Part shown: piece by piece, positions 5,794-55,894 of the stretch
Numbering within the stretch: the first letter of the stretch is position 1
Layout: every line of letters begins with the position of its first letter
Origin: Cryobacterium ruanii
Lineage (GTDB): Bacteria > Actinomycetota > Actinomycetes > Actinomycetales > Microbacteriaceae
Reading direction: 5' to 3'
Assembly: GCF_004404055.1 (NCBI RefSeq)
Contig: NZ_SOHK01000007.1
Span: 413,588 to 477,587, forward strand
DNA: 64,000 bases
Notes under the pieces: model-generated
The model's database searches: none
What the model was told of the DNA's origin: nothing
The model's input: only the letters and a program-made list of their open reading frames with translations
Position numbers and translations under genes: made by a program

Positions 5794-8222
5794 GCGTGTC
5801 GTCCTCTGGGAGTCGAAAACGTGCGAATGGAATGTCGATCTTCGTCGTCAACAGCAACCAGCAGCGCCACCGGGTAGCGTGCCAGCACGTCGGCGACCCG
5901 CAGGCTCGGACCATCGAAACGATTCCGGGTGAGCACGTCGACATAGCCACGACCTGCAACACCGATCGTGGCGTCGCCCCAGCCGCTGCCGGCCAGCAGC
6001 CCGATTGGCAACCGGGTGGCCAGAGTGATCGCACCCCCGCGATCGAACGCCACCACGTGGCCCGCCGCGCCCCCAAAGGCGGGCACCGGTGCATACCGGG
6101 TGAAGAGGCCTGGCCGGTCGCGCCGCAGCCGCAGGGCCCGGGCGGTGACCAGCAGCTTGGCGGCGCCGGTCTCGTCGATGGGCGGGAGCCATCCGCTGTC
6201 AATGCGGGCGAGCAGGTCGCGGCGCTGCTCGTAGTCGACCGGACGACGGTTGTCCGGGTCGACGAGCGAGGTCTCCCACAGTTCGCTGCCCTGGTAGACG
6301 TCGGGAATACCCGGCATGGTCAGCTGCAATAGTTTCAGCGATAGTGAGTTGCTCCACCCGGCTTGCTGCACCCGGCGGATGAACCCGGTGATCAGGTCGT
6401 GGGTCGGCCCGGCTTCGACGGCGGCCGTGGCCAGCTGCTCGAGTCTGTACTCAAAATCGGCGTTCTGCTGGGTCCAGGTGGTGGAGGTGCCAGCCTCTCG
6501 GGCCGCCTTGAGCGCGTAGGCCGCGACCCTCTCTCGGCTGGCGGGCCCGGTGCCCACGATCGCCTGCCAGAGCAAGTTCTCGAACGGCGCATCGTCGAGC
6601 GGATGCCGTGCCCGCAGCTGCTCCAGCGTGCTCTCCCACTCGGCGGGGACCTCGGCCAGCACCGAGATGCGCGCGCGCACGTCTTCGCCACGCTTGGTGT
6701 CGTGGGTCGACAGGGTCGTCATGGACTGCGGAAACCCCGCCAGCCGAATGCGTTGTCGATCATGGAACTCGGCAACCGTCACCGCGAACTCGGCGGGATC
6801 GGCACCAACCTCGTTGAGCGAGGTCAGCCGGCTATACCGGTAGTAGGCGCGGTCCTCGACGCCCTTGGCCATGACCATGCCCGAGGTCTGTTGAAAGCGC
6901 ACTGCGGCCGGATGCCCCGGGTCGCTCAGCAGGGGCAGCAGCCGGTCGATCTCAGCCGCAAGCTTCGGGCGGTTGGCGGCCGATCGGCGCGCCGCCTCCT
7001 GCAGCTGGTCGAGCCCCAACGGCAGGTAGGAGCGGTAGACCGGAAACCAGGCCAGCAGGTCGGAGAGGGCATCGACAGTGGCCTCTCCAATGGACTCGGA
7101 GCTCGTGGCGTTCTCCCCCGCACTATTCGGCACGAGCCGCGCGATGCGCCGTACCTCGGATTGCAGGATGCCTTCGGTCACGTCGCGTTTATTGCGATAG
7201 ACCAGATTCGCCCAGGTGATTGCCGGGTCGCCGTGCAGCCGAGCCTCGAGGGCATCGAGGGCCCTCTGGCCGGACGGATCGACGAGAACCCTGTCGACGT
7301 CGCCGAGAGCGTCATAGCCGGTCGTGCCGGCGGTCGCCCAACTCGTCGGCAGCTGCTCCGGCCCCTCGAGAATCTTCTCGACCAGCACGTAAGCCCCGTT
7401 GGTGGCCCGGCGCAACGCGTCGAGGTAGCCGGCCGGGTCGGAGAGCCCGTCAGGATGGTCGACCCTCAGACCCTGCACGAGGCCGTCCTGCACCCAGCGC
7501 ACGATTTCGCGGTGCGACTCATCGAACACCCAGGGCACCTCAACGCGAATGCCGGCGAGGCTGTTCACCGCGAAGAATCGGCGATAGTTCAACTCCGCGT
7601 CGGCCCGCCGCCAGTTGACGAGTTGATAGTACTGCCGCTCGTGCACCTCGGCTGGGCTTGCGCCGTCGTCGGCGGAGCCGGCGGCGATCGGAAACCGGTT
7701 GGAAAAGTAGCGCAACTCGCCGTCGATGAGTTTCAACCGGTCGAGCTCGCCGGGCCCGTCGCCGCCTTCATCGTCACCGAGTACGGGAATGCGAACCTTC
7801 CCCTGACCGAACGCCCAGTCCACGTCGAAGGCTTCGGCGTAGCGCGACTGCTGGCCGTTCTGCAGCAGGTCCCACCACCACGAGTTGTGCTGCGGTGTCG
7901 CTATACCCACGTGATTGGGCACGATGTCGACGAGCACACCGCGGCTGGCCCGGTGCGCCGCCGCGGCGAGCCGATCCAGGGCCTTTGCCCCGCCCCGTGC
8001 AGGGTCGACGAGGGAGTGGTCGACGACGTCGTACCCGTGATCCGATCCGGGTTCAGCCTTCAATAACGGCGACAGATAGACCCAGTCGGCACCGAGATCG
8101 CTAACGTAGCCGACGATGCCCGCGGCCGCATCGAGGTCGAAGCCTGCCGTGATCTGCAGGCGGTAGGTGGAAAGCGGCACGGCCACGGGCCCCGTCGCCG
8201 GTAGATCAATATCGAGAGTCAC
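5790..8222 (-). CDS. treY: Malto-oligosyltrehalose synthase
   Basis: This 810-residue GH13 enzyme converts the terminal alpha-1,4 bond of a maltodextrin into an alpha,alpha-1,1 bond by intramolecular transglycosylation. It opens with the typical [16 protein letters not shown]. The active-site segments are [12 protein letters not shown] (nucleophile Asp), [10 protein letters not shown] (Glu) and [12 protein letters not shown] (Asp). The long insertions between barrel strands that distinguish TreY from other GH13 enzymes explain the size. It lies ten bases behind glgX and overlaps treZ by four bases. Confidence 0.96.
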
Positions 8223-51738: not shown

Positions 51739-51781
51739 TCGGGACTCTCCTGTGTATTGAAACGGTGTGCTGCGGGTAATG

Positions 51782-51855
51782 TCGGGGCGACAGGAATTGA
51801 ACCTGCGACTTCTCGCCCCCAAAACGAGCGCTCTACCAAGCTGAGCTACGCCCCG
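51782..51855 (-). tRNA. tRNA-Pro (TGG)
   Basis: The 74-base cloverleaf has a 7-bp acceptor stem CGGGGCG/CGCCCCG, D-arm GCTC/GAGC, anticodon loop TTTGGGG (anticodon TGG), and T-loop TTCAATT. The discriminator is A; CCA is not encoded. It lies 43 bases ahead of the tig start on the same strand. Confidence 0.96.
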
Positions 51856-52008
51856 GATCTACTTCGACCCGTTGGTACTACTTTGTTGGGGAACCAATCC
51901 GGTGGCGCAGGCGAGAGCTCACGTCAGGCGGATTGACCTCCGCCAGTCTAATGCACGGCTTTCGAACGGATGCGCCCGCCCTGGCAAACGCCCCCCGGTT
52001 TGCTGTAC

Positions 52009-52014
52009 TAAGAT
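52009..52014 (+). promoter_or_regulatory. Probable -10 box of tRNA-Gly
   Basis: TAAGAT lies 26 bases before the tRNA 5' end, which would give a short leader of about 19 bases. No -35 with normal spacing was recognised. Confidence 0.45.
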
Positions 52015-52039
52015 GTTTGAGTGCCCGAATGTTGGGCCT

Positions 52040-52110
52040 GGGGACGTAGCTCAATGGTAGAGCCTGAGTTTTCCAAACTTATGACGCGGGTTCGATTCCC
52101 GTCGTCCCCT
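52040..52110 (+). tRNA. tRNA-Gly (TCC)
   Basis: The 71-base cloverleaf has acceptor stem GGGGACG/CGTCCCC, D-arm GCTC/GAGC, anticodon loop TTTCCAA (anticodon TCC) with one G-T pair in the anticodon stem, and T-loop TTCGATT. The discriminator is T and no CCA is encoded. A secreted-protein operon follows immediately. Confidence 0.96.
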
Positions 52111-52119
52111 CCCTTGCCA

Positions 52120-52136: not shown

Positions 52137-52282
52137 ACGATCACTGCGCTCCACCGCGCTGTCTTCCCCTGCCTTGGGGGTTTAGACCCCCTGTTGCTGG
52201 CGTGCGCCACCTGTCAGTGTCCTCGTTAAGGGGGACCGACCAATTCGGTTTTGCGTGTCTCCCGCTACGAGAGGCGCAACCC

Positions 52283-52876
52283 GTGATAAAGCACCTTAGT
52301 TTTCTGCCTGCCAGGTCACCCGTGCGGGTGCGAGCCGTTCTTGCGGCCGGCGCCGCGCTGGGGCTGAGCACCGTGATGACATTCGCGTTGTTCACCGATG
52401 ACGGCCACGTGGAATCGACGTTCAGCACCGGTACGGTCAATCTGACTTTCGACAGCAACCAGCAGGGAGCGCTGGCGGCGCCGTACGCGCTGACCAGTCT
52501 CGCCATCGCGAACGGCAAGATCGGCTCGACCACCATCTCGCCGCTGACGGTCCATAACGCGGGCTCCCTGGCGTTCAACTATTCGACGACCACCACCTCG
52601 ACCGGCAGCGCCGCACTGTCATCCGCCCTACTGGTGAGCATCGTCTCGCTCGGCTCCTCGGGCACCTGCGATGCGACGACCTCGTTCACCGGCTCCCTCT
52701 CTACCGGTTCCGGCCTGAACGCCGCGAGCATCCCCGCTCGCTCGCTCGCGGCCGGAGCGTCAGAGGTGCTCTGCTTCAAAGTGACTCTGCCGACCACCGG
52801 CAGCGACGCCACGGACAACGCGCTGCAGGCAGCGACGACCACGGCGAAGTTCGCGTTCGCCGCCGTCCAGTCGTAG
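52283..52876 (+). CDS. Exported protein with SipW-type signal peptide, first
   Basis: The product has 197 residues. A basic n-region (RSPVRVR) is followed by a hydrophobic stretch and ALFTD (35-39), the signature of signal peptides cleaved by SipW-type peptidases. The mature part is rich in Thr, Ser, Gly and Ala and begins with FSTGTVNLTF, as in TasA/camelysin-like fibre proteins. Two cysteines (SGTCDAT, EVLCFKV) may form a disulfide. GTG at 52283 has GAGAGG seven bases upstream. Its two downstream neighbours are a homologous protein and the peptidase. Confidence 0.82.
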   Translation: MIKHLSFLPARSPVRVRAVLAAGAALGLSTVMTFALFTDDGHVESTFSTGTVNLTFDSNQQGALAAPYALTSLAIANGKIGSTTISPLTVHNAGSLAFNYSTTTTSTGSAALSSALLVSIVSLGSSGTCDATTSFTGSLSTGSGLNAASIPARSLAAGASEVLCFKVTLPTTGSDATDNALQAATTTAKFAFAAVQS

Positions 52877-52910
52877 TCATCTCGTGACCCGCCACGCTTC
52901 AGGAGTCGCC

Positions 52911-53549
52911 GTGCCCCGCGTGAATTACCCCACCGCGCGGCACCCGGCGGCCCTGGTGCGTGTGTGGGTGCGGCTTATCCTGGCTTTCGGCGCTCTCGTC
53001 GGCATCGGCGCGTACGGCACGAGCGCGTCGTTCACCGATGCGTCCTACGTCGCGGCGTCCTTCGCAACGGGCACCATCGACCTGACCGTCGCCGGCTCGT
53101 CCGGTGTTTTTGCGCAGGGCCGTCCCGCCGAGCTCGGCCTCACCCAGCTGACCGCAGTGGGGATGTATCCCGGCGGTCCGGCAGGCATCGCCGAACTGAG
53201 GCTGCACAACAACGGCCAGATCGCCATGAACCTGTCCACGATCGTATTCACGACGACCAATTCCGGCGGTGTCGCCAACGATGCCGGCACGACCGCGCTC
53301 GGCCAGATAGCTCGACTGAAAGTCGTACAGTATTCCGGCGCGCAGGTGTGCGATGACGCACTCGTGGCCGGGGACGGCACGCTTCCCCTGAGCGCCACCA
53401 TCTCAACGGGTCTTCCCACCCTTGCCGCCGGTACCACGGTGACGTATTGCCTGAAGGTAAACATTCCCGGCACGGTCACCGATGCCCCCCGCGCAGCACT
53501 CAACGTCGACATGCGGCTCCACGTTCTCGTGACGTCAGTACAGGTTTGA
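52911..53549 (+). CDS. Exported protein with SipW-type signal peptide, second
   Basis: The product has 212 residues, homologous in plan to the preceding protein: a hydrophobic stretch, ASFTD (39-43), FATGTIDLTV, a beta-rich body and two cysteines in matching places (GAQVCDD, VTYCLKV). The GTG at 52911 has AGGAG five bases upstream and is better supported than a GTG nine codons earlier. Both proteins probably reach the cell surface and may assemble together. The peptidase gene begins four bases after the stop. Confidence 0.83.
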   Translation: MPRVNYPTARHPAALVRVWVRLILAFGALVGIGAYGTSASFTDASYVAASFATGTIDLTVAGSSGVFAQGRPAELGLTQLTAVGMYPGGPAGIAELRLHNNGQIAMNLSTIVFTTTNSGGVANDAGTTALGQIARLKVVQYSGAQVCDDALVAGDGTLPLSATISTGLPTLAAGTTVTYCLKVNIPGTVTDAPRAALNVDMRLHVLVTSVQV

Positions 53550-53553
53550 GGCC

Positions 53554-54612
53554 ATGATCAAAATTACCCGAATCTCCCAGGAGATCGTTCTCACCCTCGG
53601 CGCCATTCTCGGCGTCATCTGCATCCTCGCGGCCCTGGCCGCCGTGTTCTTTGGGGTGACTCCCCTGATCTTTCGATCGGGGTCGATGTCCCCCGAAATT
53701 CACACCGGTGCCCTCGCCCTGGCCCTGAAGGTACCAGCGAGTGAGATTCGCGTTTCCGATGTCGTCAGCGCGGTCAACCCACAGGGCACCAGGGTCACGC
53801 ACCGCGTGACCGCCGTCTCCCCCGAGGCCAACGGCACGGTCGCCCTCACCATGCAGGGCGACGCAAACGAAGTCGTTGATCCGGAACCGTATCTGGTCGC
53901 TCAGGCCGATCGCGTCATCTGGCACCTCGATGGCCTGGGATTCGTCGTGCAGGAGGTTCAGAAGCCGCCCTACGTGTTCGCGATAGGCCTGCTGGCCGGC
54001 GCCCTGCTGGTCATGTCGGTGCGCAGCAGCCGCGTTGCGCGGCCGGCTGCTGATCAGGATACCGAGACCGACAGAGCGGATGCCGGCGTTCGCGTCATCG
54101 ACGAACCGCCCGCTAATTCACTGGATGACACCGAGACCGATACTGCACCCGGTCGCCGGCGCAAGCGTGCGGTGGTGGCGTCGACGGCGCTCGTCCTGGC
54201 CGCGGCGGTCGCGGCGGGAACACTCGTCGGTGGGCATCCGCTCGACACGATGGCGTTGTTCACCGACCAGACCGGAGCGGTATCGGCGAGCCTGGCGTCG
54301 TCACTCGGCGTTCCGTTCCAACCGACGAACGTGACGTGCTCCGGTACCGGTACCGGCGGCAAGGACATGACTATCTCGTGGACGGTCGCTGCCACGACTC
54401 CCAACGCGGGGTATTCGATCGAGGGCGGCCCGACTGCCAACCCGACTCAAACCACGAGTGCCGGCGTCGTGACCGTCGTGTTTCCATCCTCAGCGATGAC
54501 GGCTACCACCTATACGTTGATCGTTTCAGCCATTCACTTCACGAACTGGCCAGCGTCGGCCAGTTCCAAGACCGTGAGCGTGACCCAGCCCAAAGGCAAG
54601 GTGCACTGCTGA
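53554..54612 (+). CDS. sipW: SipW-type signal peptidase I fused to an exported substrate-like domain
   Basis: This 352-residue protein has helix one (about 11-35) and the eukaryotic/archaeal-type peptidase domain with Ser44 (RSGSMSP), His83 (VTHRV) and Asp103 (QGDAN), where His replaces the Lys of ordinary signal peptidase I. Helix two (139-156) ends a normal SipW. Here a 50-residue acidic linker, RRRKR (201-205), a third helix (206-224), ALFTD (234-238) and a fibronectin-like Thr-rich domain with Cys262 and Cys352 follow. The added part looks like a full SipW substrate in the right topology. GAGG lies before the ATG. Confidence 0.85.
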   Translation: MIKITRISQEIVLTLGAILGVICILAALAAVFFGVTPLIFRSGSMSPEIHTGALALALKVPASEIRVSDVVSAVNPQGTRVTHRVTAVSPEANGTVALTMQGDANEVVDPEPYLVAQADRVIWHLDGLGFVVQEVQKPPYVFAIGLLAGALLVMSVRSSRVARPAADQDTETDRADAGVRVIDEPPANSLDDTETDTAPGRRRKRAVVASTALVLAAAVAAGTLVGGHPLDTMALFTDQTGAVSASLASSLGVPFQPTNVTCSGTGTGGKDMTISWTVAATTPNAGYSIEGGPTANPTQTTSAGVVTVVFPSSAMTATTYTLIVSAIHFTNWPASASSKTVSVTQPKGKVHC

Positions 54613-54619
54613 TCCACTG

Positions 54620-55894
54620 GCGCACCGGAACCGACGGAGGCTCAGAACCGACCCGCAGCACCTGGAACTGCATGGCGTGCACGTGAAAGTTGTGTGGCAA
54701 CGGCATGGCGTTGTCGATGGTCCACACCCCGGTGGCGCCCGCCTCGACGGTCTCGTCGATGCGAGTCATGTCCATCAGCCGGTTGTTGATCGTGTACCCG
54801 TTGAGGGTGAAGGAGCGGTCGGTGGAGGCATCCGCTTTCTGCAGCGGCTCAATGGAGGCGAGGGCGGTCGGCGTCGAGCCGATGCTGCTGAGCGTTGCGG
54901 CGGCGCGCAGCTCGAGCAGGTCGAGCAGGTCGAGCAGGTCGAGCAGGTCGAGCAGGTCGAGCAGGTCGAGCAGGTCGAGCAGGTCGAGCGTGTCGAGCGT
55001 GTCGTCGCCGGCGTTGCGGCTTGCGGCGCTGGCCGAGGTGCCGCCTCCGCCAGTAGTCCCCCGTCGGTCGCGATGAGGTCGAAGTGCCGGCCGTCGCTGA
55101 ACCCGAAGTCGTACAGGCGGGACGTGGAGCCGTTGACGATGCGCAGGCGCACCACCTCGGAAATGACGTCAAGGTAGGGCGCGAGGGCACCGTTGACGAG
55201 CAGCTGGTCGCCTACGGGTCCGATGTAGCCGCGTACGTCGGTGACGAACTGGCCGTTCTCGTCGAAACGACGGTCCTGCACCACCACCGGAATATCGTCG
55301 ACCCCGTAGCTGCGCGGCAGATTGAGGGCCGCTTCCTCGTCGTCCTGCACGAGAAAGAGACCGGCCAGGCCCATTTAAACCTGGTGTTCGGTGGTGCCGT
55401 CGGGGTGCGGGTGGTACCACAGGGTCGCTGCGGGCTGGTCGATCGTGAAGTTCGGGCTCCACGTGGCACCCGGCTCGACCATCTGGTGCGGGCCGCCGTC
55501 CATTTCGGCGGGCAGGCTCAATCCGTGCCAGTGCACGGTCGAGGCTTCGTCGAGCTCATTGCCGACGTTGATGCGCACGTCTTCGCCACGCCCGGCGACG
55601 ATGGTCGGGCCGAGAAAACTGCCGTTGTAGCCCCAGGTGTCGGTCGCAACGCCGGTACGAACTCGGCCGTGAGATCGAAGACCCGTTCCCCGGCGGCAAT
55701 CACGGTCGACTCAGCCAGCGGCAAAATAGCCAGCGGGTTCACGAATCGATCGTGCCGACGGTGTCGATGACGCCGGCACCGGCGTCGCTCGAGCAGGCGG
55801 TCAGGCCCACGGCCAGCACGACCGAGCCAATTACCGCGCCGCTGACAATGGTGGCAATGCCACGACGGGGGCGGGCAAATCGAGACGGGAGCAT
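54620..55894 (-). pseudogene. Multicopper oxidase pseudogene, 3'-truncated
   Basis: The intact reading would be a lipoprotein-type or exported multicopper oxidase (CueO-like). Pieces recognised are a signal with LTAC, VHWHGLSLPAEMDGG, LWYHPHPDGTTEHQV, GLAGLFLV, FDLIATDGG and HNFHVHAMQFQVL. The reading frame breaks at about 55741 and about 55650. TAA at 55377-55375 stands where the family has a Tyr after EQV. A 9-bp repeat array replaces the stretch after DGG, and the C-terminal copper ligands are missing because the gene stops at the sipW 3' end. Confidence 0.85.
54912..55001 (+). repeat. 9-bp tandem repeat in the oxidase pseudogene
   Basis: Eight identical units TCGAGCAGG (54912-54983) are followed by two variants TCGAGCGTG (54984-55001). 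On the oxidase strand they encode Leu-Leu-Asp in one frame. The perfection of the copies suggests recent expansion. Confidence 0.92.

Follow-up and report, generated by a model that had tools for sequence, protein, structure and literature searches.

A SipW-type signal peptidase of Cryobacterium ruanii fused to a predicted SipW-type substrate, a candidate fibre initiator, and its relatives in other actinobacteria

In a 64-kb window of the Cryobacterium ruanii genome (the whole stretch of 64,000 nucleotides analysed here), one gene encodes a SipW-type signal peptidase that continues in frame into what has the features of a SipW-type substrate. We read it as a natural sipW::tapA-like fusion, clustered with the genes of two TasA-like fibre proteins (the second one probably TasA-like), whose enzyme would release its own tail as a fibre initiator. 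Our rough probability for this reading is 0.57. The features are collected in Table 1.

Table 1. Features of the three-gene cluster, in window coordinates
Feature	Position	Strand	Basis
TasA-like (camelysin) exported protein 1, 197 aa, predicted cut TFA/LFTDD	52283..52876	+	ORF open from 52202; start by homologues
Probable TasA-like exported protein 2, 221 aa, predicted cut TSA/SFTDA	52884..53549	+	Weak TIGR04088, identity to protein 1
SipW-type signal peptidase fused to predicted SipW-type substrate, 352 aa	53554..54612	+	ORF, profile, motif positions, AlphaFold2
Helix 1, residues 2-33	53557..53652	+	AlphaFold2
Catalytic Ser44 codon (His83 codon 53800-53802, Asp103 codon 53860-53862)	53683..53685	+	
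Helix 2, residues 138-161	53965..54036	+	AlphaFold2
Predicted cytoplasmic linker, residues 162-200	54037..54153	+	Low model confidence; least conserved segment
RRRKR and helix 3, predicted internal signal peptide, residues 201-225	54154..54228	+	Model, charge, split relatives
Predicted cleavage bond A234/L235	54253..54258	+	-1 Ala in 70/70 distinct tails
Donor-strand-like segment, +1 to +17, residues 235-251	54256..54306	+	Family-level similarity; window match beyond LFTD not above shuffles
FN3/Ig-like beta-sandwich, residues 258-352, with Cys262 and Cys352	54325..54609	+	Fold matches, alignment, AlphaFold2

The fused gene reads through 352 codons from its ATG to its stop with 0 internal stops. 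Within this one frame, a SipW/Sec11-type signal peptidase comes first; basic residues, helix 3 and a TMA/LFTD site come after it, and a disordered strand leads into an FN3-like domain that contains two cysteines. The motifs start at residues 42 (SGSMSP, containing Ser44), 82 (THRV, His83), 102 (GDAN, Asp103), 201 (RRRKR) and 234 (ALFTD, which straddles the predicted cut). Cysteines lie at residues 23, 262 and 352, two of them within the tail. Hydrophobic peaks were found at residues 17, 138 and 207, and the AlphaFold2 model (mean pLDDT 80.8) has the first two helices of Table 1 and a third at residues 202-225, no regular structure at 226-252 (pLDDT <50 at 232-247), and sandwich strands from 258 to 351. 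ORF, motif positions and model thus agree with the sequence-only reading of this DNA, which had described a complete Ser/His/Asp signal peptidase continued without a stop by RRRKR, a third helix, ALFTD and a two-cysteine domain.

Signal peptidases I of the SipW/ER type have an active site of Ser, His (not Lys) and Asp, and the protein carries all three as Ser44, His83 and Asp103. It matches the corresponding profile TIGR02228 at 53.3 bits (cut-off 51.85), the only enzyme of the genome to exceed that cut-off, and scores 41.4 bits against the Bacillus SipW equivalog NF046067, below the cut-off of 190. All 67 or 68 of the 69 aligned homologues whose sequence extends to the three catalytic residues keep them unchanged, a figure that is biased because the 69 were picked from 121 listed proteins by length and, in most cases, because a tail was visible. 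Along the same alignment, conservation is lowest in the linker and next lowest in helix 3. To our knowledge, Sec11A and Sec11C of the human signal peptidase complex have no substrate tail.

Two exported proteins are encoded just upstream. The first exceeds the cut-offs of TIGR04088 and PF12389, and its model shows the TasA fold, by which it is TasA-like; judged from its homologues, it probably starts at the GTG at 52283, not at 52202. The second is probably TasA-like too: it is 32% identical to the first in the alignment, and it scores 14.7 bits against TIGR04088, below the cut-off (18.7 in another run, 19.4 with its neighbours in the frame). These two proteins are the only TIGR04088 matches in the genome. 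Run over both strands of the window, a detector for K/R, a hydrophobic stretch and xxA.[FWY].[DN] found three sites in all, one in each of the two neighbours and one in the tail, which bears out the claim that the tail shares their layout. A tRNA-Pro (minus strand) and a tRNA-Gly (plus strand) stand at 51781-52112, just upstream of the cluster. Downstream, a 9-base tandem array (54907-54998, 10.2 copies, 96% match) lies inside a minus-strand ORF (54775-55374) that by eye is reminiscent of a multicopper oxidase and has no match in Pfam.

The case that the tail is a SipW-type substrate, as had first been proposed from the letters, is strong: its charge topology fits, its -3/-1 site is conserved, and in split relatives the corresponding part is a protein of its own with an N-terminal signal peptide. 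Across 66 homologues, K+R averages 5.24 ahead of helix 3 and 0.41 behind it, an asymmetry that would place the cut site outside, alongside the catalytic domain, and so supports the proposal that the third helix exposes ALFTD there. At the predicted cut, -1 is Ala in 70/70 distinct tails, -3 is Thr in 57/70 (T/A/S/G in 68/70) and +4 is Asp in 61/70; these counts come from 76 tails (70 distinct) selected by helix 3 alone, with its position set by hand in L032 and L051, and are fairer than those of the 69-protein alignment, though MAFFT may itself align the Ala. Helix 3 of the window's tail has the charge, the -3/-1 residues and the AxFxD pattern; it gives no listed match to TIGR04088, the profile of SipW-type signal peptides, which picks up 4 of the 69 homologues weakly (E up to 1, best 0.0095). 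A Pfam search of the window's tail alone gave no match, and the homologues are mostly named signal peptidase I where a name is given, with a few hypothetical or other names. The tail is therefore largely unannotated. Among the matches listed for it are FN3-like ones. Two Cys and two Trp are conserved in the domain (both Cys in 68/68 rows reaching them, in the same biased alignment), and Cys262 and Cys352 probably form a disulfide. In one metagenomic relative (P0005, 87% identical over the aligned 45%), linker and helix 3 are missing and LDTMALFTD and the domain are kept, through either a real deletion or an assembly error.

To estimate how widespread the fusion is, we searched proteins with it, which gave 120 proteins including the query itself, and classed enzymes from the best 80 of 106 loci of a genome scan (for a pattern close to this enzyme), 48 further loci and the window. 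By the third helix alone, the 198 enzymes comprised 76 tailed, 8 with an LPxTG-like tail end, 111 tail-less and 3 cut by contig ends; some loci are the same gene twice (189 different of 195 tree rows), and many members of the tail-less class come from other clades, at least one of its rows (L068_4385) being odd. By their record titles, tailed forms occur in Cryobacterium, Frigoribacterium, Psychromicrobium, Rhodococcus, Prescottella, Gordonia, Nocardia, Nocardioides, Aeromicrobium and Phytoactinopolyspora, among others. A gene unique to one genome is thereby ruled out; the architecture first described stands and is widespread. Within the genus Cryobacterium, 33 of 57 genomes gave any match, and the 19 loci fetched besides the window's own held 3 tailed, 2 LPxTG-like and 14 tail-less enzymes. 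The tailed form is therefore patchy in the genus, and because of this spread the tRNA pair is a possible place of insertion. The tree was made with FastTree only, from short columns and with long branches, and is compatible with gain as with loss. In a literature search of titles and beginnings of abstracts, with many subscription journals outside its coverage, no description of such fusions was found.

Some relatives carry enzyme and tail as separate genes. A protein search with the tail alone gave 2 matches (the short P0121 and the partial P0006) and missed the split tails of Mycobacteriales, which a tblastn search of the fetched loci recovered. The fused tails were used as queries against twenty loci whose enzyme belongs to the tailed clade and is tail-less or doubtful; L069, L081, L089 and L102, where a tail-less enzyme stands before a tailed one, were set aside. 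A tail matched at 1e-4 in 18 of the 20 (none in L077 and L007), and 18 were read in detail, leaving out L086 and L007 and keeping L077 as a negative. A separate tail ORF with a usable start lies within 14 nt of the enzyme stop in 15 of these 18 (14 genomes), its start codon chosen by hand among several. Enzyme and tail overlap by exactly 8 nt in 12 loci (L056, L063, L072, L079, L084, L085, L088, L092, L100, L101, L108 and L121; 11 genomes, several closely related). In L059 the overlap is 4 nt, in L106 it is 14 nt or a short gap depending on the start, and in L107 the tail begins 10 nt after the enzyme. The tail ORF is about 880 nt further on in L120 and on the other strand in L109, and no separate tail ORF was seen in the L077 locus as read. 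The split tails have a helix near the N terminus of their own protein, like a signal peptide. The split L059 (Prescottella agglutinans) and the fused L055 (P. equi) form a pair on a starred branch of the tree. Since homologues share the order of parts and split relatives keep enzyme and tail adjacent, with the identical overlap in 12 loci, we ruled out a sequencing error or a chance fusion. In L086 (Frondihabitans sucicola, 5843-6217) the tail is in a different frame from the enzyme, as a split gene or a frameshift. By eye, many of the loci L053-L129 are two-peptidase clusters, with tail-less enzymes near LW-type substrates and tailed or split ones near AW-type substrates.

Tails of another kind are fused to eight enzymes with an FKTGSM-like motif (FQTGSM in one): L015, L019, L022, L024, L026, L028, L034 and L036. 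By eye, these tails have an AxA-like site after helix 3, an extracellular domain and an LPxTG- or LAxTG-like end, which we take to have its sortase meaning. The enzymes fall in a starred 12-row clade of the FastTree tree, outside the main tailed clade. In 4 of 13 tail-less loci searched (L013, L016, L018 and L029) an LPxTG-like tail is the next gene, overlapping the enzyme by 4 nt in three and following after 1 nt in one. From these fused and separate forms, it seems that a peptidase and an adjacent exported protein have been fused at least twice.

We compared the start of the tails with that of the neighbouring substrates in 42 tailed enzymes, the window included, that have an upstream substrate within 1500 nt, both sides being picked by the site motif. 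From +5 to +20, own pairs scored 21.2, shuffled residues 2.8 (0/200 as high) and permuted partners 14.3 (0/300). Resolved by position, similarity stays positive through +17 and turns negative over +18 to +29; of the 42 pairs, 27 individually score above 95% of their own shuffles. Permuting partners within hand-made clades gave 0/2000 as high overall (Propionibacteriales and others 0/2000, Micrococcales 18/2000); in the Rhodococcus group the locus-specific match fails, with 1745/2000 as high. In the three genomes with two loci, own pairs outscored swapped ones twice and failed to do so once. Given these permutations and swaps, a start segment shared by tails and neighbours is solid across the family, and co-evolution at single loci is borne out only partly, with descent as a confounder. 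The window's own tail starts LFTDQ and its neighbour 1 LFTDD, and nothing beyond LFTD is above chance (1303 and 1418 of 5000 shuffles as high against the two neighbours). The suggestion that the tail serves as a nucleator thus gains from its TapA-like anatomy and from the family-wide segment, which may act as a donor strand, and gains nothing from the window's own residues beyond LFTD.

Helix 3 could instead be a signal anchor that is never cut, so that the peptidase would form a membrane base handing each cut TasA-like subunit to its own donor strand. From the last K/R to -1, fused tails measure 18-30 residues (n=41; 29 in the window; 4 more without K/R within the 30 searched) and free substrates 16-24 (n=162; 3 more without K/R within the 25 searched). 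A helix 3 and c-region of this length favour a stable anchor over self-release; the family-level similarity of the strand would suit such a base as well, and a linker of roughly 6-65 residues (76 tails) would hold the tail close. On the other hand, cutting best accounts for the strict Ala at -1 and the mostly small residues at -3, positions that lie outside the mature strand; split forms carry their signal peptide at the N terminus, and the LPxTG-like tails of the other lineage would presumably need a free N terminus. We consider the uncut anchor unlikely, and the enzyme likely cleaves its own tail. The longer helix region, the weak strand match in the window and P0005, which has no helix 3, count in part against the sipW::tapA reading.

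It is rather improbable that the tail is a surface adhesin or another accessory unrelated to fibres, with the fusion merely tying its production to its peptidase. Tails do vary (a Laminin_G_3 domain in P0062 and P0109, two of the 10 long tails that were scanned; a larger, by eye propeller-like tail in L023; LPxTG-like ones in the other lineage), which such a role would accommodate, as it would the chance-level strand match of the window. However, across the family the first 17 residues match the start of the neighbouring substrate though the parts behind them differ, and a substrate-like ORF stands just upstream of the enzyme in 73 of the best 80 loci (at least one, L109, looks spurious by eye). 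Very improbable is autoinhibition, in which the tail site, strictly kept and similar to the sites of both neighbouring substrates, would act as a pseudo-substrate, filling the active site in cis and regulating the enzyme, the domain being secondary, since the tail exists as an independent exported protein in split forms and its domain keeps its Cys and Trp pairs.

Three papers allow a comparison with known systems. In TasA fibres the subunits are joined by residues 28-38, with which the mature protein begins (PMC9674648). TapA starts AFHDI, like the AFNDI of TasA, is disordered up to its Ig domain and has a C92-C188 disulfide; the tapA and sipW genes of B. subtilis overlap, and TapA conservation is lacking even within Bacillus (PMC10151520). 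The cluster resembles the tapA-sipW-tasA operon in combining a SipW-type peptidase, a TasA-like substrate and an accessory substrate with a disordered strand, an Ig-like domain and a Cys pair, and the genes of enzyme and tail likewise overlap in most split relatives. Unlike in B. subtilis, enzyme and accessory part form one chain, with the accessory part second, and the sandwich of the latter is FN3-like; TapA is absent among the matches listed for the protein or the tail in sequence and fold searches. The sipW-tasA/calY region of Bacillus cereus also has SipW with two TasA-like proteins (the second one here probably so), without tapA, and the accessible part of its description mentions no tail on SipW (PMC4292775).

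On the sipW::tapA-like reading, helix 1 would run in-to-out, the catalytic domain would lie outside and helix 2 would run out-to-in. Beyond the cytoplasmic linker, helix 3 would act as a signal peptide and export the tail. The enzyme would cut A234/L235, in cis or on another copy, as it would cut both neighbours, and free a 118-residue protein beginning LFTD, an exposed strand with a complete, probably disulfide-bonded sandwich. Strand donation by the freed tail, a putative initiator, to the first TasA-like subunit would start the fibre beside the enzyme that matures the other subunits. Going further, one may tentatively picture the peptidase as a fibre-assembly platform, which would cut its own tail and its neighbours at one membrane site and pass subunits from the active site to the donor strand, as a Gram-positive counterpart of chaperone-usher initiation made of a single protein; peptidase-substrate fusion would then be a recurrent coupling of maturation and assembly, taken at least two times (FN3-like and LPxTG-like). 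We hold this extension to be doubtful.

If our reading is right, the covalent sipW::initiator fusion would name, for TasA-like fibres at the cell surface outside Bacillus, a candidate initiator in many actinobacteria. With the natural split versions as controls, the connection of signal cleavage to fibre assembly could be tested directly. The protein itself would be a membrane protease with its own substrate attached, released by its own cut.
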